The notes below the pieces were generated by a model that worked only from the letters and a program-made list of their open reading frames with translations, searched no databases and was not told the DNA's origin. From assembly GCF_020405205.1 (NCBI RefSeq), contig NZ_CP084469.1, forward strand, positions 124,001-188,000: a stretch of 64,000 bases of DNA, written 5' to 3'. How positions within the stretch are numbered: the first letter of the stretch is position 1; each line of letters begins with the position of its first letter. The position numbers and the translations under genes are program-made. Of this stretch, positions 1 to 54,941 are shown in pieces. This DNA is from Natrinema salinisoli (GTDB lineage Archaea; Halobacteriota; Halobacteria; Halobacteriales; Natrialbaceae).

Positions 1-3000
1 TTATTCCACGATCTCGCATTCAACAACGGTGAGGGATTTGGGAAAACCGCGATTGTCTATCCGCGGAACGCGTTGCTTGAAGATCAACTTGAGCGCTTCC
101 TCGTCACGTTACATGAGATGAACGAGGAATACGACGCCAACATCTCGATCGGGATTTATAACGGCAATGTTCCGCGGGATAACAGTGATGTTGCGACAAG
201 TTCGCTCGTTGAAGACGGTGAATTCGCGGTTGCACAGTGGACAGGAGGTGAGCATGAAGACGACCCCGTTGCACTAGAGTGGGATGACGACGCGTATGCG
301 CTGACAGCTCCAGATGGTCCCACGTTCGGGGAAGACACACTGAAACTATCGCGTTCTGCTATGCAGCCGGATAATGGAGGAGATGTTCCCGACATTTTAC
401 TTACGACCATCAACTCCTTAGAAAACTTTGCACTCAAACCAAATTACCATATAATCGACGAGTTCCGGACGGTCGTGTTTGATGAGGTTCATCTCTATAA
501 CGGTATCTACGGATCGCACGCTTCACGCATTATCAAAAATACGCGTGAGTCGATCGCACGACGAGTCGATGACGATGTCGGAATGCTGTATATTGGCTCC
601 AGTGCAACGATCGCCCAGCCCAAACAGTTCGGCAGTGATTTGTTCGGAGTAGATTCAGGCAGTACCTCCGTGATCAGGACAAGACCAGAGGATAAACGTG
701 AGACCGACGACACGGAGCACTTCCACTTTGTGACTTCGGCAGAGGAAGTCGGAACGAGTTCCACGTTTATCCAGCAAATCCTGCTGTTTGCGCATGCGCT
801 TCTGGACGAGCGTGATGACCGCGAGCGAAAGAAGGCGCTTGCCTTTATCGACAGTGTGAGTCAGGTCAACCAACGGTATTTCCAGATACGGGATTTCGAA
901 AACGAAGGGCGGTGGCGTCATCACGATACTGATGAGGATGACTGGGATGCGGTCGCCAATGAGACTCCATATAGAGCCGCCAGGCCAACTGAGACACTTC
1001 CTGGACACGAGCTTATCCAAGATGACCTCAATATTGAGCGGACCACATCTGATCTCCGTCTTGGAGCAGACGAGTTCGGGAACACGGACCTAATACTGAG
1101 TACTTCCCTGCTCGAAGTAGGGATTGATATTCCAGCCATCAAGGTGATCAGCCAGTACCGGGCACCGTGGGAGATGTCCCAGTTCGTTCAACGAATCGGT
1201 CGTGCTTCGCGCCAAGAGGGGAATGACGCTCATTTCCTTGTCACATTGGAAAATGAAGGTGGTGATAGAACGCTGTTCCACCGAGCTGATCGGTTCCTTG
1301 AACCAGAAATCACCACCCCCCTGAACGTCGACAACGAGATTCTGATCTGGATTCACGATCAACTCTATCGCGCCTTTGAGATTATCTATCAACTCCGGAG
1401 CCAGCCGGGACTATCCAATAACGAGCAACGGGAAAATTTCCTTGAATCGTTCCTCAACGGTTCAGCTGAAGCCTCGTTCCAAGCATTTCTGCATCTGGTC
1501 CAGAATCCTAACACAATTTTGCAAAATACGTTTCAGCAGCAAGTCCGTGACTTGGACGGACTGGAGACCACAGATGGACTGCGACGGGCGTACCGTGAGT
1601 TGCAAGACATCCAAGACCGAGCCGTCTTCACGGAAATCGCTGGATTTGTCAATGAACCAGCGACACGCTTCACCCTCCAGCTGGAGGGGCGTGATGACCT
1701 CGATGAGTGGATAGATCAGGGATTGCGTACTCTGCGCACAGAAACTGAGGACCTGATAGACGATTCAGAGTCGGAAACTGCTGCTGCTGAACAGACGGTC
1801 GATGACATCCGTGATGACCTTGCGGACCTCACTGATCTGCTCACTGAGGATGAAATAGACCGCCGTGACCGGTATGACCGCCTCGACCGAATGCTGTACG
1901 ACATTCAGGGTGATCTGGCGTCTCTCGCGCAATCGTTGGACGGGGTACCCGATTCTTTCCCCTATAACCTGGGATACGGGGAGGCTATGGAGGCGCTGCA
2001 AACAGCTCGTGGAATCCGTAGAGACGATGAACTGCAGCAGCGATCTCAGCGGTGGCGACAGGCATACTACCTCAAGAAGTCCCTACAAGAATTGTACTGC
2101 TTTATCGGTCAGGAGTATGAGCGGGAGGATGCTGAAAACACGGTTTACGGCCATCTGATGGTTCGTGCGTTTAAGGCGTTGCTCCGCGGAGTGTACTTCT
2201 TTGATCGTGCCGTTGCGATGGATGATGTTGGTGAACAACTCCAGCCACCGCATTACGTGCCCACATCGTACTTCGCTGAGGCAGGGGAGACGTTTTCCAT
2301 CGTTCCTGAAGAGGAACACGACGAGGACGAAGAAGAAGACCGTGTCGATATCTTGTATGACCGTCGGTTTGTGAATAATGATGAGGACGGTGATGAAAAT
2401 GACACACAGCGTACAGAAGCACCGCTGACTACGCTTCTCTTTGAATATGCACCATACATGGCGAAATATCTGGCAGACCAATCACTGCAGATGTTTAACC
2501 CGCCTGTTCAGGATGCTCCTCCAGAGGAAGAGGCGGATTACTACTTCGATGTTGCCGGTCTCAGTACGGAGCCTGGACAGAACGTGATCACGCCGAACAC
2601 GCTGCCCGTAAAACGCGTCCGGGACTTTTCAGGTGATCGTGCCCAGTCGATCGTCCGGTACTGTACTGAGTCACTCTATGTGGCGCGTGATTTCTGGGAC
2701 ACTGGACCGCATGGAGGGGATACCATGGAATTTGGACAGCTTCATTCGGAGCCTCAGATCTCTACCGCCTTCAACGAGGATGTGCCAACAGAGGATGGGA
2801 TCACTGTCACGTATATGTCCCCGGATGTCCGACTAGACGCTGTTGATCTGACCATCACTCCCGCAGATCCCATGGGCGATCCGACGACTGGGGGCAGCAC
2901 CCCGTTTAATCCGGACCGGGATAACCAAGATGAGGTCTTGATCGAATTCGAACGACCGCTTGGGTTCTCACTCAGAACGCGAGGAGCGGTCTGGGATCTC

Positions 3001-3864
3001 AACGAGTTTATCGATGCGTTCCTCGAAGAAGAAGAATATCAGGTGTTCCGTGACAGATTTGACACCCAGAACCCGGACGGCGATCTGGAGACTGCAATCC
3101 ATTACACCGCTGCCCATCTCTTGTTGGAGATCATCGCAGACGTGAGTGGCGTTAACCAGGCTCAATTATTGTACGGTATCAACCCGGAGAATCGGCAGGT
3201 CGCTGTATTCGAGTACGCTGAAGGTGGACAAGGTATCGTTGATCTCTTTGATGATGTCCGGGACCAGGCGGAGCACGAAAAGCTACTTCGGTCGATCAAC
3301 CGAGTCGCATCTAATCCGCAGCTGATCAACGGTTATCTATGGACCGATCCGGAGTTCGTTTCCGCTGTCCAGAATGACAACTGGGATGCGGTTCGAGGCA
3401 GAATCGAGGACCGTGTCACCGTCGCTGTAGAGACCGTGGTCGACGACGTCGTTGAGATGGTCCGTAATACGGCTGATCGGGTCGGGGAATTTGCCAGAGA
3501 TGCTGGTATCGATCCGGACAACGCGTACGACCTCCGACAAGACGTTGTCCACCGGCAGTTCGTTGACGGAGATCATGAACCGGCTGAGGATCTCATCGAC
3601 GACCATGATCTGGACGTTACTGCTGAAAAGGTGCGGAATCTACTGGAAGAACCCGATGTCGATGGGTGTATCGAAAACCTCCACCAAGCTTACAGTATTG
3701 CTCCAGGAGACCAAAATGACGTACTGAGCTTTGCCGTTCTGGAGCCGCTGTATGAGCATCTGATCACACGGAAAGATGGCGATGAGTGGGGTGAAGACAT
3801 ACTCGACAACGAGGCGATGGCCGGAGCTCGAATCGATGGCACGAACATTTTCCATTCACTCTGA
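1..3864 (+). CDS. DEAD/DEAH-box helicase with DUF1998-like tail (DpdJ/DrmA-DrmB type), 5' truncated by the window
   Basis: The frame is open from base 1 and already reads a helicase motif Ia-like stretch (AIVYPRNALLEDQ) before the first TTG at 73, so the gene starts outside the window and the Walker A motif is not visible. Further motifs are DEVHLY (motif II), SSAT (III), STSLLEVGIDIP (V) and QFVQRIGRASR (VI). A long acidic middle region follows. Near the C-terminus EYAEGGQGIVDLF matches the DUF1998 signature seen in DrmB and DpdJ-like proteins. At least 1287 residues are present. Helicases of this kind act on DNA in DISARM and Dpd defence systems. Its stop overlaps the next gene, a PLD nuclease, which is the helicase-PLD pairing known from both systems. 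The family call is solid. Assignment to Dpd rather than DISARM rests on the nearby DpdA-like gene. Confidence 0.85.
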   Translation, partial: LFHDLAFNNGEGFGKTAIVYPRNALLEDQLERFLVTLHEMNEEYDANISIGIYNGNVPRDNSDVATSSLVEDGEFAVAQWTGGEHEDDPVALEWDDDAYALTAPDGPTFGEDTLKLSRSAMQPDNGGDVPDILLTTINSLENFALKPNYHIIDEFRTVVFDEVHLYNGIYGSHASRIIKNTRESIARRVDDDVGMLYIGSSATIAQPKQFGSDLFGVDSGSTSVIRTRPEDKRETDDTEHFHFVTSAEEVGTSSTFIQQILLFAHALLDERDDRERKKALAFIDSVSQVNQRYFQIRDFENEGRWRHHDTDEDDWDAVANETPYRAARPTETLPGHELIQDDLNIERTTSDLRLGADEFGNTDLILSTSLLEVGIDIPAIKVISQYRAPWEMSQFVQRIGRASRQEGNDAHFLVTLENEGGDRTLFHRADRFLEPEITTPLNVDNEILIWIHDQLYRAFEIIYQLRSQPGLSNNEQRENFLESFLNGSAEASFQAFLHLVQNPNTILQNTFQQQVRDLDGLETTDGLRRAYRELQDIQDRAVFTEIAGFVNEPATRFTLQLEGRDDLDEWIDQGLRTLRTETEDLIDDSESETAAAEQTVDDIRDDLADLTDLLTEDEIDRRDRYDRLDRMLYDIQGDLASLAQSLDGVPDSFPYNLGYGEAMEALQTARGIRRDDELQQRSQRWRQAYYLKKSLQELYCFIGQEYEREDAENTVYGHLMVRAFKALLRGVYFFDRAVAMDDVGEQLQPPHYVPTSYFAEAGETFSIVPEEEHDEDEEEDRVDILYDRRFVNNDEDGDENDTQRTEAPLTTLLFEYAPYMAKYLADQSLQMFNPPVQDAPPEEEADYYFDVAGLSTEPGQNVITPNTLPVKRVRDFSGDRAQSIVRYCTESLYVARDFWDTGPHGGDTMEFGQLHSEPQISTAFNEDVPTEDGITVTYMSPDVRLDAVDLTITPADPMGDPTTGGSTPFNPDRDNQDEVLIEFERPLGFSLRTRGAVWDLNEFIDAFLEEEEYQVFRDRFDTQNPDGDLETAIHYTAAHLLLEIIADVSGVNQAQLLYGINPENRQVAVFEYAEGGQGIVDLFDDVRDQAEHEKLLRSINRVASNPQLINGYLWTDPEFVSAVQNDNWDAVRGRIEDRVTVAVETVVDDVVEMVRNTADRVGEFARDAGIDPDNAYDLRQDVVHRQFVDGDHEPAEDLIDDHDLDVTAEKVRNLLEEPDVDGCIENLHQAYSIAPGDQNDVLSFAVLEPLYEHLITRKDGDEWGEDILDNEAMAGARIDGTNIFHSL

Positions 3865-4291
3865 CCTGATCGCCTCCTTCCTTGGGACGGCGTTCCTGAA
3901 CGCAGAGCGGATCGCGATCGTCTCACCCTGGGTAAGTGACATCACTGTCCAGTTCCCGGAAACTGATCAGCTCTCTGAACGCCAATTGCAGCTATCTGAA
4001 GCAGTGCGGTTCTTTGACGTTGATGTCTGGTTCGTCGTCGATCCCGCACAAGACGATCACAATCGGCTTCGACCTGCTGCATTACTCCCTCGTGTCTCGG
4101 ACGTGGCCTATATCAAAGAGGTTGAAAACCTTCATGCTAAAGCGATCGTGACAGACCAAGTACTGTATCAGGGCTCTGCAAACGTAACGTACCGCGGATT
4201 AAATATCAATATCGAGCTCTGTGATATTCGTGAAAACGAATGCGGGAGTATTAGCGGCTTTCTCGAGGATAGGCTTCAGATTGACCTCTAA
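3836..4291 (+). CDS. Phospholipase D-like nuclease domain protein (DpdK/DrmC type)
   Basis: This 151-residue protein carries one HKD-type motif: HAKAIVTD followed by GSANVTYRG and then a Glu (NIELCD), the pattern HxKx4D...GSxN of PLD-superfamily nucleases. An N-terminal segment (IAIVSPWVSD) fits the first strand of the fold. The ATG at 3836 overlaps the helicase stop by 29 bases, so the two are probably translated together. The reading frame stays open further upstream, but that part lies inside the helicase gene and looks non-coding. Single-motif PLD proteins usually dimerise to form the active site. DrmC in DISARM and DpdK in Dpd islands are the closest functional parallels. Its substrate cannot be read from the sequence. 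Confidence 0.75.
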   Translation: MARTFSIHSDLIASFLGTAFLNAERIAIVSPWVSDITVQFPETDQLSERQLQLSEAVRFFDVDVWFVVDPAQDDHNRLRPAALLPRVSDVAYIKEVENLHAKAIVTDQVLYQGSANVTYRGLNINIELCDIRENECGSISGFLEDRLQIDL

Positions 4292-4388
4292 AACCGACAT
4301 CCGGCTTTTGGCCTCGATCGTGTTTATAAAACCGTGGTTCGTTCGGGAACCCAAACGGCTTAACCAACTGGTCTAATAAACCCACGCT

Positions 4389-5321
4389 ATGGGAAAACGG
4401 CCTGAGATAGGGGCATACGCGGAGGAAGTCGAGGACTTCCACGCGGAACCCGACGATCTTGAAATCTTTGATCCGAATTTGGTCTTAGGGTATTTTCAAC
4501 GCTTAGAACTGATCTTAGAGAAATGTCCTGTGAATATCTATGCGGCCTCGTCTCTTAAACATCCCTGGCCATATCGGTTGCAGAAGGCTGGGGAGTGTGC
4601 TCCGGCATCGTTCTGGCGGAGTCAGCACCGCATCTTGGATTCTAATATCACTGATCCACGGGTCACCAACGAGGATATCCTTGAGGAGGCGATACAGAAG
4701 GACGCGACAGCTGTTGTCGCCAAAGACTACCTGCCATTTCATCTCTATGACCGCAAATTTGACCTGGAAAAGCTGACGGGGGCAGCAAACCATACAGAGG
4801 CAACGACCCAAAGCATCCAGGAGTTTATCGACCTCCATGATCCGGACCGGCACCCACCGGCATATATCCCGCTGCAGCCTCCGTATGTCGATCATATACA
4901 AGATATCAGGGAAATCGTCGTCGACAGTCATCTCGAGGAGAGGTACATGCTTGGCGGGCTCAAAAATGCGAACCCTAAACGACGGATCAGCGAAGCTCAG
5001 GCCCTCCGAGACGAAATCGGTAGCGAGCCGGACCTCCACGGACTGGGCTGGGGGCTCTCGGATGCCCTTGTTGAATCACTCCGGCATAATCCGGACCTGA
5101 TCGAGTCCGTCGATAACAGCGGTCCATCACAGGCCATTCTCAACGGTGGCCTGCTTGACAAGCACTGGCAAAAACAGCCATTTGGACTGGTCGAAGGACA
5201 GATGCGGAACTCGGTCGCAGGGGCATTCGAGTTCGGAATCCTCCTCCAGGCAACGCACCGGCTCACCAAGTACAATACCGAGTTTACCACCAACCAGAAA
5301 AGTATCAGCGACTACCAATAA
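4389..5321 (+). CDS. Divergent TGT-fold (tRNA-guanine transglycosylase-like) protein
   Basis: This 310-residue protein was not assigned by a single strong motif. Its second half reproduces the strand order of the TGT TIM barrel: YMLGGLKNANP, then RISEAQALRDEIG, then LHGLGWG, then ESVDNS. The neighbouring DpdA-like protein has IALGSLVPKKD, then LHVLGIG, then DTFDSTT at equivalent places. The Asp of ESVDNS lies where TGT enzymes have their nucleophile. No zinc-binding CxCxxC cluster is visible, so it lacks the TGT zinc domain. It may be a partner or base-recognition subunit of the DpdA-like enzyme. It may match a haloarchaeal DUF6610 family, but I could not check that. The gene starts 97 bases after the PLD gene and is followed after 8 bases by a DUF6884-type gene. 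Confidence 0.6.
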   Translation: MGKRPEIGAYAEEVEDFHAEPDDLEIFDPNLVLGYFQRLELILEKCPVNIYAASSLKHPWPYRLQKAGECAPASFWRSQHRILDSNITDPRVTNEDILEEAIQKDATAVVAKDYLPFHLYDRKFDLEKLTGAANHTEATTQSIQEFIDLHDPDRHPPAYIPLQPPYVDHIQDIREIVVDSHLEERYMLGGLKNANPKRRISEAQALRDEIGSEPDLHGLGWGLSDALVESLRHNPDLIESVDNSGPSQAILNGGLLDKHWQKQPFGLVEGQMRNSVAGAFEFGILLQATHRLTKYNTEFTTNQKSISDYQ

Positions 5322-5329
5322 AACGGGTC

Positions 5330-5779
5330 ATGACGAAAACCTTGGCGCTTGTGGGCTGTGGAAGCGAAAAACGTGATACGCGGACGGAAGCGAAGTCACT
5401 CTATACCTCCACCTACTTCGCTAAAAAACGGCAGTGGGCCGAAGGATGCGATACCTGGCGTATCCTTTCTGCTGAACACGGGGTAGTTCACCCAGCCACT
5501 GTTTTAGAACCGTACGATACCGCGATGGCCGACCTGAGCAACGAGCAGGCCAACGAATGGGCCACAGATGTCATGGCCGATTTGCGCCCACTGCTCAGTA
5601 GTTTTGACGAAGTTGTCGTCCTCGCTGGCCGTGACTACTTTGACCCAATCAGTGACGAACTTCGCCAAGCAGCACCCACGGTACAGTGGCCGTTCCAAGG
5701 AAAGAGGCTGTTCGAACAGATGGAATGGCTCGAGCAAACCTCACCCCCAGATCAGTCAACACTCGAGTCGTTCGAGTGA
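5330..5779 (+). CDS. DUF6884-type protein (first copy)
   Basis: This 149-residue protein has the features I associate with DUF6884: an N-terminal LVGCGSEKR strand and Cys, AKSLYTSTYF, WRILSAEHGVVHP and EPYDTAM. The conserved Cys, Tyr and SAEHG residues suggest an enzyme-like pocket. DUF6884 genes are commonly found in phages and islands near TGT-like genes, and the motif layout recalls YaaA/DUF328 proteins, the family of DpdC. The gene lies 8 bases after the TGT-fold gene, so the two are likely co-transcribed. Biochemical function is not established. A role in remodelling the 7-deazaguanine base is inference from context. Confidence 0.7.
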   Translation: MTKTLALVGCGSEKRDTRTEAKSLYTSTYFAKKRQWAEGCDTWRILSAEHGVVHPATVLEPYDTAMADLSNEQANEWATDVMADLRPLLSSFDEVVVLAGRDYFDPISDELRQAAPTVQWPFQGKRLFEQMEWLEQTSPPDQSTLESFE

Positions 5780-5977
5780 CACCCCATAGATATCGTTCTC
5801 TTTCTCTCAAAACAAAACCATGAGCGTATATAAGGGACTAGCCGGTTCTGGTTACCGTTGCCTATCCACTTATCTCAGAACCCCAGGTATGACTCCTGTA
5901 TCTGTTGAATTCTCCGGATACACGGCGCAGTAGAGAACGTGGTAAGCTATAAGGTCTCGGGGTCGAAAGAGGAAACC

Positions 5978-6460
5978 ATGTCAATACTGCTGGTACAGTC
6001 ATGCTCAAAGTCTAAAAATCAGCCGGGAGAACCGGTTAAGGCCCTCGAATTATACTCGGGCTATTTCTTCAAAATTATCAAAAAATCGATACGGGACGGC
6101 AAGCTTCAGGATGAAATCGATATTTGCGTTCTCTCGGCCGAACACGGACTAATCGATACAACTGACGAAATCAGCTACTATGATCGACGTATGAACGCAG
6201 ACCGGGCAGCTGAGATCCGGGATGACATCACGATGGAACTGCGATCACGAGTCGATGAGAACGATTATGACCATGTCATCTTCAATCTCGGATCTGCATA
6301 TAGGGGTGCGATCGGAGATTTGTCTGACCTTCCGGCATCAGTCCAGTTTATTGAGGGAGATGGCATCGGATACAAAGGGCACACACTCAAGCAAATTATT
6401 CGGGGCGACTATTCGTCGCTTGAGATGGAGGTGAGGAATGCCACAGCTCAAGCAGACTGA
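5978..6460 (+). CDS. DUF6884-type protein (second copy)
   Basis: This 160-residue protein is a paralogue of the 5330 gene. It shares LVQSCSKSKN at the N-terminus, ALELYSGYFF, CVLSAEHGLIDTTDEI and YYDRRM. The ATG at 5978 is chosen because a TATA-like element (ctataagg, about 5947-5954) lies upstream and the conserved strand begins right after this Met. The stop overlaps the start of the DpdA-like gene by 23 bases, implying coupled translation. Having two diverged copies beside one transglycosylase suggests a heteromer or two sequential steps. That is inference. Confidence 0.7.
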   Translation: MSILLVQSCSKSKNQPGEPVKALELYSGYFFKIIKKSIRDGKLQDEIDICVLSAEHGLIDTTDEISYYDRRMNADRAAEIRDDITMELRSRVDENDYDHVIFNLGSAYRGAIGDLSDLPASVQFIEGDGIGYKGHTLKQIIRGDYSSLEMEVRNATAQAD

Positions 6461-7682
6461 TCAGACTGCCTCGTTCCAAGTCGCTGCGACAGCTGGCGAT
6501 GCCCGTGCCGGGACCCTCACTGTCAACGGTCAGTCACTCGACACTCCAACGTTTTTCCCCGTCCTGAGTTTCTATGGCGGTGGTACGAAATCCAGCGTCT
6601 TCGGCGGCGGCGTTCACAGGACGATAAAGGAGTTCATGCTCGGTAAGGAGGAGATCGGTGGCGGAACGTACGACGAATACTTCCGCGGAACGATGACCTC
6701 TGTTGCATCTCTCACTGACTACGGCATCAACCGGGAACGATTTGACGATTATGTCTCGGACCAAATCAAAGAACGAGAAACGTTTTCCGACTATAACGGC
6801 CTCATCTTCGTTGATTCTGGCGGATACAAATTCTTACATAACGATGGGCTTGACGGGAGTGATTTCGAGATAGAGATCGATCAACGGGAAGCGTTCCGCA
6901 TCCAGAAGCAGCTCGGCGGCGATATCATCGTCAACCTTGATCGGCCGATCGCTCCCAGCGACACGTTCGACGAACGGCAACAGAAGGCTGAACGCACCGC
7001 CGAAAATGCGGTTGAGTTTGCACGTCTTACCCAGGATTATCCAGGAGCCCGGTACCTGACCGTCCATGGATATAACTATTCGATGCTCGACCGGTTCTTC
7101 GACCACGTGCAATCCCAGTTCGGGAATATTGATATTTCTACCCTGTTTGACGGGATCGCTCTCGGCAGCCTTGTCCCGAAGAAAGATGACAAAGCAGCAT
7201 TGATCACCGCGGTCATGGACTGTGTCGAAATCATGGAGGAACGCGGGCTTGCTGATCTTCCACTCCACGTACTGGGCATTGGCAGTGGATCGATCCCGCT
7301 CCTTGTCGCTGCCGGCGCCGACACGTTCGACTCAACGACCTATCTCCTGAACGCTATCAACGAGAAGTATGCCGTGGGTTTGACCGAGCATATTCCGCTG
7401 GACGAAGTCGATTTCACCCAGTGTGACTGTGCCGTGTGCTCGGACCCGATGCTAGTCAACTGGATGCAGGGGAACACTGAATACCAGAAAGATGTTCTCG
7501 GCCCGGTCGCTATGCACAATCTTATCATCCACAGACAGGAGGTGCAAGAACTCCGGCAGCGGATCAAGCAGCACGGCACGGAACCGGTTATCGACTACCT
7601 TGACGAGACCGTGGGCCGGAATGATTCAATCCGCAAACAGACGCATCGCGTTGTCAACGAAGCGCTCGGAGGGTATTTCTAA
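6438..7682 (+). CDS. dpdA: DpdA-like DNA/tRNA guanine transglycosylase (TGT superfamily)
   Basis: This 414-residue protein is a clear TGT-superfamily enzyme. VDSGGYKF around residue 126 corresponds to the DSGGFQ general-base Asp of TGTs. NLDRP lies near 167, LHVLGIGSG at 276-284, and DTFDSTT at 295-301 carries the putative nucleophile Asp298. The zinc site is CDCAVC (329-334) with HNLIIH (360-365). TGTs exchange guanine for a 7-deazaguanine; DpdA homologues do this in DNA using preQ0. Archaea make preQ0 for archaeosine, so the substrate is available. The protein lacks the PUA-bearing extension of archaeosine TGT (TgtA) and sits among defence genes, both of which favour a DNA substrate. The gene symbol is given by similarity; direct DNA modification is inference. 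Confidence 0.8.
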   Translation: MPQLKQTDQTASFQVAATAGDARAGTLTVNGQSLDTPTFFPVLSFYGGGTKSSVFGGGVHRTIKEFMLGKEEIGGGTYDEYFRGTMTSVASLTDYGINRERFDDYVSDQIKERETFSDYNGLIFVDSGGYKFLHNDGLDGSDFEIEIDQREAFRIQKQLGGDIIVNLDRPIAPSDTFDERQQKAERTAENAVEFARLTQDYPGARYLTVHGYNYSMLDRFFDHVQSQFGNIDISTLFDGIALGSLVPKKDDKAALITAVMDCVEIMEERGLADLPLHVLGIGSGSIPLLVAAGADTFDSTTYLLNAINEKYAVGLTEHIPLDEVDFTQCDCAVCSDPMLVNWMQGNTEYQKDVLGPVAMHNLIIHRQEVQELRQRIKQHGTEPVIDYLDETVGRNDSIRKQTHRVVNEALGGYF

Positions 7683-7684
7683 CA

Positions 7685-9250
7685 ATGAAACAACACCCGG
7701 AAGTCAACGAAGTACAGGAGTTTCTTGAGATTGCCAGCGATTTCGAGGATCCCCTCGAGATCATCCGTGAATCACTATCAAATGCGTACGATGCCGGTGC
7801 GACAGAGGTCGTGATAACGATCCGCGACACTGCCGCAGGCTCCGACATCATCATCGAAGACGACGGGCACGGCATGTCCCGGGACGATCTCAAGTCCTTC
7901 TTCGACCTCGGGAACTCCCGGAAGACCGACTCGATCGGCCACAAAGGCCACGGAACAAAAATCTTCTACAAGAGCGACCGTATTGTCGTTGACACCGCGC
8001 ACAACGGCTCAAACTACCACGCGGTCATGGACCAGCCCTGGGAGAAACTTAATGAGAAAACACTACCAGAATACGAGGTCACAGAAACAGAAACCCGCCC
8101 AGGCAATACTGGGACCCGTATCCAAATCAGTGGTTTCCGGTCCGGTGAAGGATTTGATCCAGAATCGCTGACGTACGACAAGATCCACCACTACCTGAAG
8201 TGGAAGACCATTGCCGGATCGACAGCACACTATTTCGACGACGATCAGCGCAAGATGGATATCGTGGTCGACCTCGATGAGGAGATTGACGATTCCCAAG
8301 AGCAGCTTGTCACGACCAACCAGCTTACATTCCCCAGCGAGCAGCTAGAACCAGACAACAGTGATTTCCCCGCCACCCGAATGTGTAAGCACTATCCGGC
8401 GCGTGAAATCGAATTCGAGCATGATGGAGGGACATCAACTGTGGAAATCGTCGGTATGGTTGGCGGTAAAGAGGCCCGCAATGAACTCCCTACCTACGGA
8501 CGGCACTCCGTCCAATTTGGTGTCTGGCTTGCAAAGGACCATATCAAGGTCGAACAGGTCAATGAAGTGCTGTCCCATGACAACGAGTTTATCCACTTCT
8601 TCTTCATCGCCAACTGCCAAGACCTCGAACTCTCGGCAAACCGAGGAAAGGTCCGGAACAAGGCGAGTTCACTGTATAAAGAACTGAAACAGGAACTCAA
8701 ACACTATCTGACGAAGGTGGCAGAAGATCCCTGGTTCAAGGAAGACTATCTAGAAACACGCAAACGCGCACAGCTACGGCGACGCGCACAGTCCCAGACA
8801 ACGTCACTTGAAGAACGACTGGAGTCCATTGATACCAACGACCGGTTCAAGCCGACCAATCGGTCGGAGGTCCTGCTGGCACTCGAACGCTCGAACAACG
8901 AGGCGGACAACAGTATCACCGTAAAAGAGTACAAAGCAGACCATGAGGTCCCGGCAATCCTGCTGGACGATGGCACGCTGCGTCCCAGTCACGTATACGT
9001 CGAACTCACCGAGCATTTCGAAGACGACTATCCGCTCGGTTCAGCCGACACGATTCTGTGCTGGAGCTACGGTGATATCGATATCCTGCGAGAATATGAA
9101 CGGAACGGATACCACGGCGGTGACGTGGAAATCAATCTTCAAGACAACCAAATCATCTACCACCATGAGAACCGTCACACCGTGGACATCATCACGGTCT
9201 CTGACCGGTTGGCCGCACTGGAGCACCAACCACTCCCATCACTGGATTAG
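7685..9250 (+). CDS. GHKL-type ATPase (HSP90/MORC-like), defence-associated
   Basis: This 521-residue protein opens with a Bergerat-fold ATP-binding domain. ESLSNAYDAGA carries the N-box Asn, IEDDGHGMS is the G1 box, and SIGHKGHGTK is the glycine-rich lid. The remainder, about residues 200-521, is acidic and has no recognised domain. Similar GHKL proteins act as conformational switches in MORC, MutL and several antiphage systems. It starts 2 bases after the DpdA-like stop and belongs to the same operon. In this setting it may couple sensing of modification state to the nuclease-like partners. That role is not shown by the sequence. Confidence 0.75.
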   Translation: MKQHPEVNEVQEFLEIASDFEDPLEIIRESLSNAYDAGATEVVITIRDTAAGSDIIIEDDGHGMSRDDLKSFFDLGNSRKTDSIGHKGHGTKIFYKSDRIVVDTAHNGSNYHAVMDQPWEKLNEKTLPEYEVTETETRPGNTGTRIQISGFRSGEGFDPESLTYDKIHHYLKWKTIAGSTAHYFDDDQRKMDIVVDLDEEIDDSQEQLVTTNQLTFPSEQLEPDNSDFPATRMCKHYPAREIEFEHDGGTSTVEIVGMVGGKEARNELPTYGRHSVQFGVWLAKDHIKVEQVNEVLSHDNEFIHFFFIANCQDLELSANRGKVRNKASSLYKELKQELKHYLTKVAEDPWFKEDYLETRKRAQLRRRAQSQTTSLEERLESIDTNDRFKPTNRSEVLLALERSNNEADNSITVKEYKADHEVPAILLDDGTLRPSHVYVELTEHFEDDYPLGSADTILCWSYGDIDILREYERNGYHGGDVEINLQDNQIIYHHENRHTVDIITVSDRLAALEHQPLPSLD

Positions 9251-9335
9251 GACGGTGACCGTTGCCTCTTAGGCAGGGAAATCGGGACTGTCTGCTACCA
9301 CAATATTAACGTGGAGATGACACGGGTGTAGGGAC

Positions 9336-11825
9336 ATGGAAAGCTCAGACGAAACACCACTTTGCGGTACTCGCGTTTTCCTGTATCCTGGTGACCCGGA
9401 CGGGACAGGGATCATCGACTATGATCCCACCGATTACCGGGAGATCTATCAGGATCTGGACTTCGTGGACAGTACCCAGTTTATCCGCTCTCTCGAGCAA
9501 GATATCAAGCTGAAAAACCGGTCTCTCCTCCGCGTGACCGACGGGGAACGGTTTGAAGTCCCGGAATACCAGCGAAATTTCTCGTGGGAGGAAGAACAGC
9601 ACGAGGAACTCTGGGATACGTTACTGTCAATTCTGACGCTGAAACCGAAATCTGGCGAACTCCCGGTGGACACCTACTTCGGCACTGTGTATATTGCTCG
9701 GTCCGCCCAGGGAGAAGTCTATGAGATCATCGACGGCCAGCAACGACTCTCCACGGTCTCTATCCTGCTGAAGAACATCAAGGACCACCTCGAAGAGAAG
9801 CGGACGAAGGTTGACGGGCAGCTCCAGGCGTACGCCGAACATATATGCGAGGAATACCTTGACGAATTGCTGTACCGGCGGAAAGGCCCGACGGAGACAC
9901 CGTTCCTAGAACTCAACGACCACGACGACAGCATCTACGAGCTGCTGTTTCAGGACCCGGAGAAAAAGGTTCAGACCCTGAAGGCGATGGACCAGTACGA
10001 CGGCCGCAAGCAGAATGCCATCCGTCTCCGGGACCTCTTCGACGAGGTTGGTATCCCCGAAGAGGTCTACGAAGAGGACGAGGAGCTGGCTGACACCGAT
10101 CTACTGGAATCGTTCCGGTACTTTGGTGACTCCCACCGCCGACTCGTGCGGACCGACGAATACTACGATGCGAAAGTCGCAGAGTTCGCAGACCGAGAGG
10201 AGTTCGACACGGCCGAGAAGGAGGTCAAGGCCCTGCTTAACCTCGCACATTTCACGCTGCGGTCTCTCCGCGTTTCCGAGTGTATCTTCCAGACTGATAA
10301 CCAGGAACTTCGGATCGAGGTCTTCCAGTCGCTGAATGACCGTGGTGTTGAGCTCTCCAGTATGGACAAGGTCCGGGCCCGTATCGTCGGCCGGTTCCAG
10401 GGCGAATCTGACAGCGACAAGCAGATCGCCCGCTGGGAGAACGTGGTCCAGATGTTCGGCGGTGACGCAGACGCCGTTGAAGACTTCCTTGCCCATTACC
10501 TGGCTGCGACCGAGAAATCGTTTGACACCGTGACTGATGCCCGCAGTAACATGCTGGAAGCGTTCCGGCTGAAACAGATCGGTCGCCGTGATATCAAGTC
10601 ACGGCTGGCAAGCCCTGGGCAGGCCCGAGACTTCCTCGAGGAACTGGAGAACTACGCAGGCCGGTACCGGGAAATCGTGACCGCGGACCTGACCGATGAC
10701 GACACTGAATTAAAAAAGGAGTACCGGGAAGAGTGCGAAGCCATCCTCCAACGGCTCAACAAGCTGGGAACAACACAGTGGCGGCCGTTCGTCATGTATG
10801 TCTACCAGGCCGTGACCGAGGCTCCCGGGAAGGATGCGTTCCTGCGCGACATCCTGAAAACGGTCGAGAACATCACGTTCCGTGTCGCGATTTCCGATCT
10901 CGTGGCGACCGTCGTCGATGATACCTATCCGAAAACCTGCCAAGCGTTCCGGGAGCTCGAACAGTCCGGGAACCAGTTCGACACTGAGCAGATCAGTGCA
11001 ACACTGGTCGATAACATCGATAGTTCGGCACGGCAGCTCTTTGGCGAGTCGTTCATCGATATCCTTGTCACCAGTGAAAACTGGCGGAACAACCAGACGA
11101 AGCAATTGTTCCTGAAGATCGCGGACGAGGATTTCCGGAGACGGAACCAGACCGGGATCACGAAGTCCGAACTAAGTGAGGATCCGAGCGAGGTCCACAT
11201 TGAGCACATCCTCCCCATCTCGTACTTCCTCCCCGGCAAAGAGAACCCGTATGCATGGCTGGAGTGCTTCTTCGATAACGGGAAGCGCAACATGATCGAA
11301 ACACAGATCGATTATCTGCGTACACGGGATGCCCACCTTCTCTCCTCTGACGATCCCGGCTACGATGAGATCGAGCAGATCATCGAGGGAATCGAGGAAC
11401 GGTTTGTCCGCGACCTAGGGAACATGATGCTCCTCGACGAAGAGGTCAACAAACCGATCAAGAACCGGCTGTTCTCGGTGAAGCTCCGAGAATACCACCT
11501 CCGGCACAGCAAGGACATGGACAACCTCGTCAACCAGTACTTCTCGACCGCCGATAACGTCTCGACCGACAAACTCGAGGAGCTTCTCGGGTTGGAGCTG
11601 CCAGAGGATGAAACTCAGTTCGGAGACGTCCATCCCACGGTCCAGTACTTCAACGAGTGGTGGACCTACGAACAGTTGATCGACCGGAAAGCGCAGCTCA
11701 TCACCGCCATACTGGAATCATTGAAGTTCCGTACGGAAGATGATGAATTCGAACCGTACATGGACGATATCGAAGACTACGTAGGAGAGGATATTGAGAA
11801 ACGGCTGGCAGTGCTGACCGCGTAA
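9336..11825 (+). CDS. DUF262/DUF1524 protein (GmrSD type IV restriction-like; DGQQR plus HNH)
   Basis: This 829-residue protein has an N-terminal DUF262 domain: FEVPEYQRNFSWEEEQ, GTVYIARS and IIDGQQRLSTV, the DGQQR nucleotide-handling motif. Near residue 620 HIEHILPISY is the His-rich core of the DUF1524 HNH nuclease. GmrS/GmrD proteins with this layout cleave modified DNA and hydrolyse NTP. DpdB of known Dpd systems also has a DGQ(Q)R ParB-like ATPase domain. It could therefore be the ATPase partner of the DpdA-like enzyme, the restriction component, or both. The gene follows the GHKL gene after 85 bases that contain an ATTAA-like promoter element (tattaacg near 9304). Confidence 0.8.
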   Translation: MESSDETPLCGTRVFLYPGDPDGTGIIDYDPTDYREIYQDLDFVDSTQFIRSLEQDIKLKNRSLLRVTDGERFEVPEYQRNFSWEEEQHEELWDTLLSILTLKPKSGELPVDTYFGTVYIARSAQGEVYEIIDGQQRLSTVSILLKNIKDHLEEKRTKVDGQLQAYAEHICEEYLDELLYRRKGPTETPFLELNDHDDSIYELLFQDPEKKVQTLKAMDQYDGRKQNAIRLRDLFDEVGIPEEVYEEDEELADTDLLESFRYFGDSHRRLVRTDEYYDAKVAEFADREEFDTAEKEVKALLNLAHFTLRSLRVSECIFQTDNQELRIEVFQSLNDRGVELSSMDKVRARIVGRFQGESDSDKQIARWENVVQMFGGDADAVEDFLAHYLAATEKSFDTVTDARSNMLEAFRLKQIGRRDIKSRLASPGQARDFLEELENYAGRYREIVTADLTDDDTELKKEYREECEAILQRLNKLGTTQWRPFVMYVYQAVTEAPGKDAFLRDILKTVENITFRVAISDLVATVVDDTYPKTCQAFRELEQSGNQFDTEQISATLVDNIDSSARQLFGESFIDILVTSENWRNNQTKQLFLKIADEDFRRRNQTGITKSELSEDPSEVHIEHILPISYFLPGKENPYAWLECFFDNGKRNMIETQIDYLRTRDAHLLSSDDPGYDEIEQIIEGIEERFVRDLGNMMLLDEEVNKPIKNRLFSVKLREYHLRHSKDMDNLVNQYFSTADNVSTDKLEELLGLELPEDETQFGDVHPTVQYFNEWWTYEQLIDRKAQLITAILESLKFRTEDDEFEPYMDDIEDYVGEDIEKRLAVLTA

Positions 11826-11843: not shown

Positions 11844-12407
11844 CTATTCGGTCCAGTCGGAAAGATCTGCAGAAGCCTCCTCGGGTTCCACGCCGAGGAA
11901 TTCAGATACGTTCTCATGGAAAATACGCTGGTGTGCATAGAGCGTTTTCTTTGTGGCCTCACTGTGGCCGGCCAGTTTGATCGTGTCGACCATCCGCAGC
12001 AAGTGCTCCAGTTTCTGCTTTGACCGGTTGTACGGCTCTGACCGGAACTCTCGTTCCTCCTCGGACACTAGTTCAACCGTTCCGTCCGGATGCTCAAGGT
12101 TCAGGTCGACGGAACCGCTCGGCGACGTGATTTCGTCGTCAAAATTCAAATACGGTTGGTGCGTAGACAGCAGTTTCTGTTCGGCACGGTCTGTCTCAGA
12201 CGTTTCCCACCAGTCCACGTAGGAAATATCCCAAATATCTAGTCGGCCGTAACTGACCACGCTGGAATCCTGCCGGACAAAGTGCTGTCTGAGGCGGCTC
12301 CGGAGTTTACTGGACTTTCCTGCATAGGCGGCTTTGCCATCAAGATCAAACATACAGTAGACACCCGGGGTTCCGGTTGGAACCGATTTGAGGTTCTCAG
12401 AAATCAT
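11844..12407 (-). CDS. GIY-YIG nuclease domain protein
   Basis: The 187-residue product begins with a GIY-YIG domain: GVYCMFDLDGKAAYAGKSS carries the GVY and YAG pair, followed by LRSRLRQHF with the catalytic-type Arg. GIY-YIG nucleases cut DNA in repair, homing and restriction. The rest of the protein is acidic with a helical C-terminus (SEATKKTLYAHQRIF). It converges on the DUF262 gene, with 18 bases between the stops. It is the last gene on the minus strand before the plus-strand defence operon and may be part of the mobile element or an anti-competitor nuclease. Confidence 0.75.
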   Translation of the reverse strand: MISENLKSVPTGTPGVYCMFDLDGKAAYAGKSSKLRSRLRQHFVRQDSSVVSYGRLDIWDISYVDWWETSETDRAEQKLLSTHQPYLNFDDEITSPSGSVDLNLEHPDGTVELVSEEEREFRSEPYNRSKQKLEHLLRMVDTIKLAGHSEATKKTLYAHQRIFHENVSEFLGVEPEEASADLSDWTE

Positions 12408-12980: not shown

Positions 12981-13129
12981 GGGAAAATCACCGGGAGAAC
13001 CTGTACCCGTGGAGGCTTTTAACCGGATAGGCGGTTTCCATGCAACCGGTCAGATAGAATCGGCACCGGGTTACGCAACCCCCTCAAGCACTATTGCTAC
13101 GGAAAGACTTTCTACAGTCAAATGTCGTC

Positions 13130-14017
13130 ATGAGACACCCAGAGCCAGGAAAAACCTTCCTCGGGGTAATCGGTCGAATCAGCAATAATGGTAATGGGAT
13201 GATCGCAGACCATGAGATCAATATCGGTCCTGCATCTAATGCTGATGTCGGGAAAGCGGTAGAGGTGGATAGGGAAAGCGGTGAATATACGATCCGAGAG
13301 GAGATCCCTGAGGACACAGCCAAAGAATTACTGAAAAGACATGTTGATAGGAAGACCCCCTCGTCATTTAATCCGTTGCGATCACAGGGCGATCTTCAAG
13401 GAGAAGCAATAACGGTTGTTCCTAAAGAAACTCTCTATGAGGACGGCCTCTACTATGAAAATACAGGCGTTCCGGTTGCCAATGCTGAAGGAAGGACGAT
13501 CTTCGCTATAGGGGCTAACGTCGGTGAGGAAGTCAAGATCGAAGTTGAAAGTTCGAGTCCGTTATACGCGATCGGTGAAGTGGTTTCAGCTGCTGTTGAT
13601 GTGGAGTCAGATACGGGGTCGGCTGATTCCGATGAGGAGTCATCAGCGTCTACCCTCAACACGTTACGAGAAAAAGCCGAGGAGGACGCTGTTGATGAAG
13701 TGCCCGAAGATGCGGAAGTGAATCGGAGTTCAACAGAGCAATACACGCGGTCGTTGTGGGTGAAGCGATACGTCAAAGAACGGGCTGGGGGCCGATGCGA
13801 GGGTTGTGGAGAACCGGCGCCGTTCACTAGCAAAACGGGAGAACCATACCTACACGCCCATCACGTTCATGAATTGAGCAATGGTGGATCTGATACGCCT
13901 GATACCGTGATCGCTCTTTGTCCGAACTGCCATTACCGTATCCACCACGGTGACGACGGCGACGAATACAATGAAGACCTGCTCGAAATCGTTCAAGAGA
14001 TTGAGGGAGATGACTAG
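13130..14017 (+). CDS. HNH endonuclease with N-terminal TRAM/OB-like domain
   Basis: The 295-residue protein ends in an HNH domain: CEGCGEPAPF, LHAHHVHELSNGG and LCPNCHYRIHHG supply the two zinc CxxC pairs and the catalytic His residues. The N-terminus (FLGVIGRISNNGNGM, then ADHEINIGPA) resembles a TRAM or OB strand set. An acidic linker (SADSDEESSAS) joins them. The ATG at 13130 is preferred over the TTG at 13094 because the domain begins immediately after it. It faces the opposite direction from its neighbours and has its own promoter region at 12990-13120. McrA-like nucleases have a similar C-terminal domain; the target is unknown. Confidence 0.8.
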   Translation: MRHPEPGKTFLGVIGRISNNGNGMIADHEINIGPASNADVGKAVEVDRESGEYTIREEIPEDTAKELLKRHVDRKTPSSFNPLRSQGDLQGEAITVVPKETLYEDGLYYENTGVPVANAEGRTIFAIGANVGEEVKIEVESSSPLYAIGEVVSAAVDVESDTGSADSDEESSASTLNTLREKAEEDAVDEVPEDAEVNRSSTEQYTRSLWVKRYVKERAGGRCEGCGEPAPFTSKTGEPYLHAHHVHELSNGGSDTPDTVIALCPNCHYRIHHGDDGDEYNEDLLEIVQEIEGDD

Positions 14018-44298: not shown

Positions 44299-46362
44299 TC
44301 AGACGTACTCGGATGCCGGGACGAATTCTATCTGGTCCGGCACTCCACCAAACTCGTCTTCTACCGCCGATCGTATCTGATCCATGACACCGTCCTCGAG
44401 GTACACCACCTCCACTCGGTCCACCCCGTAATCGAGACATTTCCGGATGTTCTCCAGTTCGTGCCACGCCGACCGTGCGACCTCGACCGCTATCGACACA
44501 ACACCGCGCTCGACATAGACATCGATCGACTCACTCCCCACCGCGTGCTCGATCTCCACGTCAAACCCGTCGGATTCGTAAAACTCCTTAATCTGATGTT
44601 GCCAGTACCGGTGCTCGACCCCACGCCTCCCAGTCTCCGGTACATCGTACCCACGGTCCTCGAGAACAGTACGGCCCTTCTCGGTCAACTCCAGTAGCGT
44701 CGGATTCTTCCCGCGCTTTCCGTTCCGCACCGTCTCCTCACTTACCAAGTCTAGAGCCACCAATTCTTCTTTCGCCGCCGTCCCTTTCTTCGACCCGACA
44801 CCGATCACGTCGTACCGCTCTGAGACGGACAGGAACGGCTCCTCCACGATACTGATCAGCAGGGCTTCCGCTACCGCGTCCGGTCCGTCATCGTCACCGT
44901 CACCAGCATTTTCGTCCTGCTCTATCGGTTCGTCACCACTCGAGTCTTCCCCGACTTCACTCTGGAACAGCGACGGCTGCATCCGCTCTGCACAGTCCAG
45001 TCTGTCGAGTTCCGACCGCATCCGCTCCCTAATCTCTGTCTCGGTCACCGACTTCTCCAGCTGGTAATCCGGTAACTCGACCGGCACCGGGCCGCGGTCC
45101 GCCACGGTCAACAGTGCTTCTCCCTTCTCCAACGTCCGCGTATACTCCGTCTCCTCCGCATCCAACCCAAACGTCCGCTGCATCTCCTCCGTATCCTTCC
45201 CCGAACCGAGGGACATCCACAGCTTCGCGTTCGTATTCGCTTTCAGCGAGTCCGACAACTTACTCGGTTCGTGATCGGCTACGATCAATGCCTCACCGAA
45301 TTCCCGGACCTGCCCCATCAACGTGGATATCGGCGGATTCGGCGAATCACTGTCTCGCTCCCGGTTCACGTCGAACACGTGCTTGGCCTCGTCGAACAGG
45401 ACAACGTGCCGCAACCCCTGCCGATGCCCCTGCGCCTCCCGGTAATAGAAGATCCACGTCAACAACGCTTCCACCACGAACACCTGCACGTCCTCGATCG
45501 GCTCCTGCAACTCGACCACCACGTTCCGCTCGAGAAACTCCTCAAACGGATAGCTCTGACTGCAGTCGAACACCTCGCCGGAGAACCCGGTCATCCCGGT
45601 CAACCGGTTATCCAGACGTTCCTTGTACCGGTACCGTGGCGAGGCGTACGGGATCTCATCGGCCCGTACCAGCTCTAAGAGTTCGTACAGCGACGGCCAC
45701 TCACCAGCATCAGTATCGTAGAACCCGTACAGTTCACGGAGCTTTCGGATGAAGTAGCCGCGTGACGCCTTCCACAATCCCATCGCGTGCGTCCACGTAT
45801 CCGCCATGACCTCCGCCCACCGCGCCACAGAGACATCGGGCGGCGGCTGCAACGGATTAAATTTGAGATCCCGCCAGTTCACCACGAGCAGGTCACGGTG
45901 TCCGGCCAGATGCCGGTAATCGTTCTTGAAATCGAACACCAAGAACGGCAGATCCATCCCGGCGCACTCGTCCATCAGATTGTAGAACAGGGTCGTCTTC
46001 CCCGCACCGGTCCGACCCACAATCAGCATGTGCTCGTTCAACTGCTCCCGAGTCAACCCGACCGGCTGCCCCTCCGGGTTCGTCCCGATCCGGAAATCCC
46101 CATCATACGACTCGAACGGGTACTCCCAGTCATAGTACGTATCCCGGCTCTCGATCTCCTCGACCTGCGGCCGATACATCTCCACAAAGCTGTCGTGCGC
46201 GTCCCGATCCATCGCCGCCATCGAAAGGATCTGCTTGATCTTCTCTGCGGACAGGCCGACCAGTTCCAGCATCTCCCGCAACTCCGCGAGCTCCTCCCGG
46301 GACGGCGTATCCTCGTCGTTGCCGATCCATGCCATACCCGGCGGTACGGCAGTGATCTGCAT
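44299..46362 (-). CDS. HerA/TraG-type ATPase with C-terminal winged helix and nuclease-like domain
   Basis: The 687-residue protein has a Walker A at HMLIVGRTGAGKTTLFYNL (about 110-128). FLVFDFKNDYRHL follows, and VVLFDEAKHVFDV is the Walker B region. AEALIVADHEPSKLSDSLKA-like text (actual FGEALIVADHEPSKL) corresponds to the sensor region of VirD4/TraG/HerA pumps. The second part contains a winged-helix segment (GTAAKEELVALDLVSEETV). The end (FDVEIEHAVGSESIDVYVE, then VVSIAVEVARS) resembles a restriction-nuclease fold with partly degraded catalytic residues. ATG at 46362 is used. A role in DNA transfer, packaging or segregation is likely. Confidence 0.75.
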   Translation of the reverse strand: MQITAVPPGMAWIGNDEDTPSREELAELREMLELVGLSAEKIKQILSMAAMDRDAHDSFVEMYRPQVEEIESRDTYYDWEYPFESYDGDFRIGTNPEGQPVGLTREQLNEHMLIVGRTGAGKTTLFYNLMDECAGMDLPFLVFDFKNDYRHLAGHRDLLVVNWRDLKFNPLQPPPDVSVARWAEVMADTWTHAMGLWKASRGYFIRKLRELYGFYDTDAGEWPSLYELLELVRADEIPYASPRYRYKERLDNRLTGMTGFSGEVFDCSQSYPFEEFLERNVVVELQEPIEDVQVFVVEALLTWIFYYREAQGHRQGLRHVVLFDEAKHVFDVNRERDSDSPNPPISTLMGQVREFGEALIVADHEPSKLSDSLKANTNAKLWMSLGSGKDTEEMQRTFGLDAEETEYTRTLEKGEALLTVADRGPVPVELPDYQLEKSVTETEIRERMRSELDRLDCAERMQPSLFQSEVGEDSSGDEPIEQDENAGDGDDDGPDAVAEALLISIVEEPFLSVSERYDVIGVGSKKGTAAKEELVALDLVSEETVRNGKRGKNPTLLELTEKGRTVLEDRGYDVPETGRRGVEHRYWQHQIKEFYESDGFDVEIEHAVGSESIDVYVERGVVSIAVEVARSAWHELENIRKCLDYGVDRVEVVYLEDGVMDQIRSAVEDEFGGVPDQIEFVPASEYV

Positions 46363-46414
46363 ACTCGGACTGCGGCGGACCACGGATCCGTGGAATCACC
46401 ACGGCCGTGGCATC

Positions 46415-47428
46415 TCAGATGTTGTCGAGGTACTGCCGTCGCTGCTCCATCTTCTCCCGCTTGGTCCGACGATCATAGTGTTCGTCGATCACTCCTTCGG
46501 ACACGTTCGCCCGGTTGCTCACGGCCTTGGTCGGCCACTCCTGATTAAGCGCGTACGTGATCCCGCCACGCCGCAGTGCATGGGGACTCACGCTTGAGGG
46601 ACACTCGTACGGATGCTCGTGATCGAGCGCCGAACAGGTATCCTGGTCGCGGTCATGCGGACAGTTCCCGGTGACGATGCAGGGTCGAGTGAACCGGTAG
46701 CAGTCACCGCGCAGCGTCCCCTTATGGGCGCGGCCCTGCCGTGTTGCCAGTAACGGTTCGCGGCCGTACTCGTCGGTGACATCCGGACGACGCGTCTCGA
46801 TCCAGTCGTCAAGCAGTGCACAGAGGTCGTCGGAGATTGCGACCAGCCGCTCACCCTTCGCTTGGTTCTTGATCGGGGTGCCCGTGTCCGGCTGGTGATG
46901 GATTTCCAAGAGTTGCTCGTCCGGGTCGTAGTCATCCACATCGAGCGCGTGTGCTGCCCCGACGCGCATCATCGTATGCCACAACAGGCTCAGCAAGACG
47001 TGGGGCCGTGACGCGTACTCGTACTTCTCAAGGTAGTCCAGGATCTCGTCTGCCCGGTCCTGTTCCAGCATCACGTCACGGACGTTGTCCTTCCCCGTCA
47101 GCAGTGGTGATCGGACCTTGACGTGCAGATCTTCTTCCGCGGCGTCGATCGACTCGAGGTACTTCACGAACACGCGGACGGTATCCATCTGCGTCTTCTC
47201 GGAGGCCGGTGACAGGTCACCGTCTTCGCGGCGCCACATCCGGTATTCCTGCATCTTCCGGCCGGTCAAGTCGTTCAGGTTGTCGATACCCTGTTCGTTG
47301 CACCAGCGCACGAAATGGCCGAGACGGGAGCTGTGGGAGTACAGTGTTGCTTGCGTGACCTCGGTATCGCGGTCGGTCAGGTACAGGTCCAGTGCGGTTT
47401 CCGGGTCGATGGGTTCCAAGTTCTCCAT
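46415..47428 (-). CDS. int: Tyrosine recombinase (integrase)
   Basis: The 337-residue protein shows the N-terminal SAM-like core-binding domain (TLYSHSSRLGHFVRWCNEQG). The catalytic domain reads LWHTMMRVGAAHALDVDDYD (first Arg), SPHALRRGGITYAL (HxxR) and EHYDRRTKR (Tyr). It has an insert with a Cys/His cluster (CPHDRDQDTCSALDHEHPYEC), as in many haloarchaeal integrases. The ATG at 47428 is used. It lies next to the att-like sequence and probably moves the element in and out of a tRNA gene. Confidence 0.85.
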   Translation of the reverse strand: MENLEPIDPETALDLYLTDRDTEVTQATLYSHSSRLGHFVRWCNEQGIDNLNDLTGRKMQEYRMWRREDGDLSPASEKTQMDTVRVFVKYLESIDAAEEDLHVKVRSPLLTGKDNVRDVMLEQDRADEILDYLEKYEYASRPHVLLSLLWHTMMRVGAAHALDVDDYDPDEQLLEIHHQPDTGTPIKNQAKGERLVAISDDLCALLDDWIETRRPDVTDEYGREPLLATRQGRAHKGTLRGDCYRFTRPCIVTGNCPHDRDQDTCSALDHEHPYECPSSVSPHALRRGGITYALNQEWPTKAVSNRANVSEGVIDEHYDRRTKREKMEQRRQYLDNI

Positions 47429-47636
47429 GGGTTGACACACGGAACCAGGGTGGAGAACAGACCTGCGGTGACCGGACGTAACCCGGCGATTCTACGCTCA
47501 GAAAGTGGATTCGTTCGAGGCGCGTCCGCAAGCCTGCAGCGCCCATGTTTCTGTCGCGAACAAATTCGTGAGCGACAGATACCGGATCGCGAAGGATTTG
47601 ACATAGACGGCGGCGAGCGAAGCGAGCCGACGGCGT

Positions 47637-52389: not shown

Positions 52390-52390
52390 T

Positions 52391-54934: not shown

Positions 54935-54941
54935 GTTCAAT

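Follow-up and report, generated by a model that had tools for sequence, protein, structure and literature searches.

We find that a plus-strand gene cluster at the left edge of the window (the whole stretch of 64,000 nucleotides analysed here, G000:C1:124001-188000 of a 4.7-Mb haloarchaeal genome) is probably a Dpd-like system for DNA base modification and restriction that is organised around a distinct core. In bacterial Dpd systems, guanine in the cell's own DNA is swapped for an altered base and unmarked DNA is attacked; the archaeal cluster looks like a cousin of this immune system with a different core. The first-pass annotation had already proposed a Dpd-like island with an unusual gene set. 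Comparative genomics supports this proposal well, through a conserved gene triad and the place of a GHKL ATPase in the core; the role given to the DGQQR protein is unlikely, and one gene had been counted twice.

All the parts named in that annotation are indeed present on the plus strand, as seen from open reading frames and family matches (Table 1). The DGQQR protein and the DUF262/DUF1524 protein, which had been counted separately, turned out to be one gene, and the apparent left end of the cluster is an artefact of the window: the helicase gene begins 371 bases upstream of it. Gene junctions are mostly short gaps or overlaps; the DpdK-like reading frame overlaps the 3' end of the helicase gene, and about 200 bases lie between C1 and the conserved start of C2. 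No tRNA gene was found for the island ends, either in the window or in the 36 kb upstream.

Table 1. Genes of the cluster in plus-strand order, with the divergent neighbour last; positions refer to the window.
Feature	Position	Strand	Length or best evidence
DpdJ-like SF2 helicase	1..3864 within window; start at -371 (G000:C1:123629; L003:15629)	+	1411 aa (full ORF)
DpdK-like PLD-family nuclease, one HKD motif (HAKAIVTD)	3776..4291	+	DpdK E=1.8e-16
Short DpdA, virus-type TGT-fold protein, 310 aa	4389..5321	+	HRTV-29 DpdA 28%; fold match
C1, DUF6884 (CxxxK) protein, paired with short DpdA	5330..5779	+	DUF6884 3.4e-38
C2, DUF6884 (CxxxK) protein, triad gene 1	5978..6460 (ORF from 5939; conserved family start 5978)	+	DUF6884 3.8e-13
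TGT2 transglycosylase	6438..7682	+	Pfam TGT 1.8e-25
GHKL ATPase, MORC/MutL/Hsp90-like	7685..9250	+	HATPase_c_3 1.1e-13
GmrSD-type protein (DUF262 with DGQQR motif + DUF1524)	9336..11825	+	GmrSD_N 2.6e-27, GmrSD_C 1.4e-7
GIY-YIG nuclease, optional neighbour	11844..12407	- (divergent)	GIY-YIG 1.4e-7

The core is formed by C2, TGT2 and the GHKL ATPase. Homologs of TGT2 (E<=1e-40, 46-100% identity) were detected in 42 of 391 haloarchaeal genomes, spread over 25 genera, and in 42/42 loci the three genes are contiguous, co-oriented and in constant order, with only a few bases between them or an overlap in most cases. An arrangement kept in this way is not chance. The comparison of gene order across haloarchaea that had been suggested for the cluster gave a triad which recurs as a unit in 42 genomes, and the GHKL ATPase, present at every one of them as C2 is, is well supported as a true member of the cluster. 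About 11% of haloarchaeal genomes carry this defined gene set, among them named species such as Halorubrum lipolyticum, Haloplanus ruber and Natrinema mahii. Both DUF6884 proteins, C1 and C2, exceed the Pfam cut-off for this family and match the DpdC model weakly; a reading of both as YaaA proteins was dropped, as DUF6884 matches far better. The earlier statement that DpdC is not recognisable was too strong, given that DUF6884 has been described as the DpdC domain (PMC11888242), although those DpdC-model matches are weak.

TGT2 has the features of the TGT superfamily, namely catalytic aspartates (D126, D298) and a CxCxxC...H zinc site (C329, C331, C334, H360), all invariant in 10 diverse members, and Pfam gave no matched region outside its TGT catalytic domain. 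Among curated models, that of the tRNA enzyme TgtA fits TGT2 best, with 107 bits (cut-off 350); the DpdA model NF041059 scores 26 bits (cut-off 200). TGT2 does not appear to be a known viral gene, because we found none in viral contigs and only weak matches of 21-29% in phage records, all of them in unannotated contigs. Taken together with the 114 bits that the ArcS model gives for the fusion enzyme described below, the TgtA match could mean that the TGT proteins modify tRNA or other RNA, as extra archaeosine-pathway paralogs placed in a defence island. We consider this unlikely, as both scores are far below cut-off and canonical TgtA scores above its own cut-off in 10/10 genomes tested, so that tRNA archaeosine appears to be served already; full-length ArcS paralogs are also present in the genomes examined. 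A position of the TGT within the tRNA archaeosine clade had been named beforehand as grounds against a DNA modification island. In our tree, TgtA and ArcS (10 sequences each) form one clade each, TGT2 falls outside both, and TGT2 and the ArcS-like fusion group together with a support of 0.99-1.0. The strict linkage to a DpdJ-like helicase and the use of the short DpdA pair by DNA viruses, both detailed below, likewise suit DNA better than RNA.

For the role of DpdB, a DndB/ParB-like DGQHR ATPase, another protein has to be considered. The model NF041060 gave no match in the whole genome even at E<=10, in agreement with the earlier remark that DpdB is not recognisable. DpdA NF041059 had no match across the genome at E<=0.01, and the Dpd models D, E, F, G, H and I are absent among the matches listed for the eight cluster proteins. 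The DGQQR protein, put forward at first as the substitute for DpdB, is disfavoured and unlikely in this role: its GmrSD family is found at 12/43 loci, while the GHKL ATPase is missing from none of the 42 triads. The best reading is that the GHKL ATPase would be the better stand-in. The idea that the DUF6884 pair fills the missing roles survives in part, in that a DpdC/ArcS-like function is the best reading of these two proteins, whereas the DpdB role would go better to the ATPase. The GHKL protein is conserved over most of its length and its ATPase motifs are intact in 42 homologs. The best fold match of its predicted model (pTM 0.59) is the MORC4 ATPase, closely followed by Hsp90, GyrB and MutL, and prokaryotic MORC/paraMORC ATPases are known to act mainly in restriction-modification systems with SF2 helicases and nucleases (PMC2292703). 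The family does not seem to be confined to the triad system, because no transglycosylase is annotated within 10 kb of a Caballeronia homolog (31%).

A preQ0 operon of QueD, QueE and QueC, often with FolE, adjoins 13/42 triads; its QueC is the sole genomic copy in some of these genomes and a second copy in others. In the genome of the window, the single QueC match is far from the cluster, which fits the earlier suggestion that the system would share the preQ0 supply of the host.

The helicase and the PLD protein are, by their model scores, clear homologs and not equivalogs of DpdJ (149-155 bits, NCBIfam cut-off 800) and DpdK (55 bits, cut-off 100). Counted at E<=1e-60, the DpdJ-like helicase occurs in 29/386 haloarchaeal genomes, and 29/29 of these carry the triad or the fusion (p~2e-33, relatedness ignored). 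It is dispensable to the core, since, of the five closest clusters, those of G028, G290 and G370 (for G370, a 20-kb locus only) are without it. DpdK is reduced to a fragment in G028 and G370. At L036 (~9275-9394) and L038 (~8768-8887), the DpdJ helicase is missing and all that is left of DpdK is a fragment of 40 residues ahead of short DpdA; here the DpdJ/K module was lost naturally and the modification core was retained. The set of effectors varies from locus to locus, and the GIY-YIG nuclease is found at 11/43 of them. As a separate observation, a five-gene module (F14 helicase, F7, F6, F5, F11) adjoins the triad in about a dozen genomes, for example at L076 (41-6644); its proteins are mostly without family matches, and it is possibly another restriction module.

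In the GmrSD protein, GmrSD_N (DUF262) and GmrSD_C (DUF1524) both exceed the Pfam cut-off, which is the domain composition of the type IV GmrSD enzymes. The presence of such a type IV-like restriction family, and the fact that some haloviruses encode preQ0 pathways or DpdA (PMC8651126), would be in accord with a modification-dependent cluster that senses or reverses viral 7-deazaguanine DNA and does not mark self. We regard this as improbable: GmrSD is present at just the 12 loci mentioned, and a constant second TGT-type enzyme together with the preQ0 operon next to 13 triads suits the making of a base, not its sensing.

This second enzyme comes in two forms. The first, the fusion, is a protein of about 630-683 aa in which an N-terminal TGT domain is followed by an ArcS-core domain (DUF5591) at the C-terminus; we found it in all 37 triad genomes that lack short DpdA, in 31 of them within the retrieved locus and in 6 at another place in the genome. 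The second is the short DpdA, which together with C1 is located inside the cluster in the genome of the window and in G028, G290, G295 and G370, all five without the fusion (0/5). Every triad genome thus carries a second TGT-type enzyme (42/42). The evidence that one form excludes the other comes from five clusters that are related to each other, with short DpdA proteins 83-96% identical, and may reflect one or two events. The co-occurrence of triad and fusion gives a hypergeometric p~3e-45 with relatedness ignored, and only one of 391 genomes, G236, has the fusion without the triad, flanked there by a DpdJ-like helicase on one side and a phage-type TGT on the other. Haladaptatus sp. YSMS36 has the order DpdJ-DpdK-DUF6884-TGT-GHKL without short DpdA and C1, and long TGT genes are nearby. 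Because the window genome and its four relatives lack the fusion and hold the pair in the cluster, and YSMS36 is without the pair, short DpdA and C1 plausibly do the work of the fusion. On the YSMS36 plasmid (L157 21503-26202), two more annotated tRNA-guanine transglycosylases of 655 and 674 aa are situated near the triad TGT; some loci thus hold three TGT genes.

That DUF6884 is homologous to the ArcS core in the fusion is no more than suggested by hhalign, which aligns the CSxxK motifs colinearly but weakly (E=0.0012, probability 8%); a correspondence of C1 to the C-terminal domain of the fusion would depend on this alignment. Relatives of the fusion exist in Cyanobacteria, Poribacteria, Chloroflexi and one Proteobacterium. 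The cyanobacterial ones adjoin a DUF262 protein and a HEPN protein, those of Chloroflexi adjoin helicase genes, one with a MrfA-type zinc domain, and the proteobacterial homolog (L133) adjoins a GHKL ATPase, so that beyond the archaea, too, the fusion is found paired with proteins of the DUF262 or GHKL type. At the cyanobacterial loci L117, L121 and L127, the fusion is followed by the DUF262 protein and then by a protein of ~210-220 aa (MAE_28990-type HEPN in L121); this recurrent unit may be a separate modification or defence system.

The short DpdA itself gave no family match in profile searches by sequence. Its predicted model (pLDDT 72) has PDB TGTs and the DNA preQ0 insertase DpdA 7ui4 as top fold matches, and D84, H217, G189/G190 and D242 are invariant in 15 homologs. 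The protein therefore combines the TGT fold with catalytic aspartates; no zinc site was found in it. The nearest annotated viral relative is the DpdA of HRTV-29 (28% identity), predicted to use host preQ0 (PMC8651126). This similarity and the fold matches of the model together uphold the first description of a second TGT-fold protein in the cluster. The HRTV-29 gene adjoins a DUF6884 gene whose product is 40% identical to C1. Searches with two divergent short-DpdA sub-alignments recovered seven viral contigs, while an alignment of the close short-DpdA set gave no viral matches; in 5/7 of the contigs, HRTV-29 included, a DUF6884 gene stands next to this DpdA. The same pair also occurs at two provirus-like haloarchaeal loci, in G361, which has the fusion as well, and in G346, one of the loci lying by an integrase and near a packaging ATPase.

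Its solitary occurrence at these provirus-like loci and in tailed viruses might indicate that the pair is viral cargo, present in the cluster by chance and functionally unrelated to the triad. We judge this quite improbable, as the pair is flanked by DpdK and C2 within the cluster, a place where it is absent in Haladaptatus, and is kept there in five genomes, precisely those without the fusion. The probable history is that short DpdA and C1 were acquired from a tailed virus and took the place of the fusion enzyme.

TGT-fold enzymes can act on proteins too, as known for Cap10. An attachment of 7-deazaguanine to protein, with TGT2 as a transglycosylase remodelled for signalling in the manner of Cap9/Cap10 of type IV CBASS, which conjugates protein via QueC-like and TGT-family enzymes (PMC11996544), is highly improbable: the PADLOC TGT model and solved Cap10 match TGT2 only weakly, no CD-NTase nucleotidyltransferase, QueC-like protein or CBASS effector was recognised among the cluster proteins, where QueC is a neighbour at other loci, it is a normal enzyme of the preQ0 pathway, and the catalytic Asp and zinc residues of TGT2 are intact and invariant.

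For the preferred reading, a Dpd-like system acting on DNA, we infer the following course. Host preQ0, made for tRNA archaeosine, would be put in place of guanine in the DNA of the cell itself by the TGT-type enzymes, TGT2 acting together with the second TGT (the short DpdA here, the fusion of TGT and ArcS core in most relatives). The GHKL ATPase, as a MORC/MutL-like DNA clamp or remodeller, could open duplex DNA to the TGTs, like the bacterial DpdB ATPase. Like DpdC and the ArcS core, C1 and C2 may then act on the nitrile of the inserted base and turn it into an amide or amidine. Unmarked DNA would be attacked by the DpdJ-like helicase and the DpdK-like PLD nuclease, and the GmrSD and GIY-YIG nucleases would serve as further effectors that are optional.

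Further features were seen elsewhere in the window. Close to the cluster, at 13094-14017, the C-terminal half of a protein matches IscB (NF040563), probably via the common HNH nuclease domain, and a weak TRAM-domain match is present. At 44299-47440, where a strong negative GC skew (about 35-46 kb) ends, a HerA/DUF87 ATPase adjoins a tyrosine integrase, and this is probably an integrated mobile element. The region 51289-56036, with a GC content of about 40-45%, encodes a DNA methylase, a fusion of a protein kinase and an ORC-CDC6-like ATPase and a 393-aa protein without recognised family; this three-gene block resembles a further defence module.

Bacteria are documented to carry chromosomal systems that couple 7-deazaguanine modification of DNA to restriction, and haloviruses are known to contain the modified base. 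Bacterial Dpd islands and the DpdA of phages and haloviruses have already been described (PMC6884629, PMC8651126, PMC11888242); one haloarchaeal protein, EMA11768, has been named as a host DpdA, which was suggested to act for HVTV-1 (PMC6884629). In the literature searched, whose coverage is incomplete, we found no description of a host-encoded archaeal 7-deazaguanine DNA system. The C2-TGT2-GHKL core, the obligate second TGT and the viral swap are apparently undescribed as well, within the same incomplete coverage, which is no proof of novelty. If our reading is true, haloarchaea use the preQ0 that they make anyway for tRNA to mark DNA with a different enzyme set, in which a MORC/MutL-type ATPase replaces DpdB and two TGTs act instead of one. 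A viral modification pair would moreover have been exchanged, as it appears, into a host restriction locus, and the system may bear on how haloviruses without their own DpdA, such as HVTV-1, become modified (PMC6884629). One may speculate further, though with less than even confidence, about an archaeal class of DNA-transglycosylation defence that combines two different TGTs, TGT2 and either an ArcS-type fusion or a short DpdA of viral origin, with a MORC-like GHKL ATPase that drives them, possibly makes a hypermodified base beyond dPreQ0/dADG and has recruited a viral anti-restriction enzyme into host restriction.

Compared with known systems, the cluster shares with the bacterial Dpd islands (dpdA-C for synthesis and dpdD-K for restriction, as in Salmonella Montevideo) the TGT(s), DUF6884/DpdC-type proteins, a DpdJ-like helicase and a DpdK-like PLD protein, and often nearby preQ0 genes. 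It differs in having neither DpdB nor a DpdA above cut-off, in DpdJ and DpdK scores below cut-off, in the lack of D-I models among the listed matches, in the GHKL ATPase within the core, in the presence of two TGTs and two DUF6884 proteins, and in its GmrSD and GIY-YIG neighbours. The HRTV-29 (Dpdavirus) DUF6884-DpdA pair gp32-gp33 consists of the same two adjacent families as C1 and short DpdA, but the pair in the window is chromosomal, has the reversed gene order and is located inside a restriction-type cluster. With the archaeosine tRNA pathway (TgtA, ArcS), the TGT fold is common, and the fusion of the relatives carries the ArcS core domain (DUF5591); unlike in that pathway, TGT2 and the fusion stand outside the TgtA and ArcS clades and coexist with canonical TgtA and full-length ArcS paralogs. 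The BRC systems (BREX-related capture with TGT/GNAT, PMC12839542) likewise have a TGT without DpdB/DpdC, with another ATPase proposed for the place of DpdB; the present cluster, however, gave no PglZ, HerA, DUF6079 or DUF4007 matches and its ATPase is of the GHKL and not the STAND type. Finally, the prokaryotic MORC/paraMORC restriction-modification operons (PMC2292703) also join a GHKL ATPase, of the MORC type that the one here resembles, to SF2 helicase and nuclease genes, but their modification genes are methylases, that paper mentioning no transglycosylase, whereas those of the haloarchaeal cluster are TGT and DUF6884 genes.
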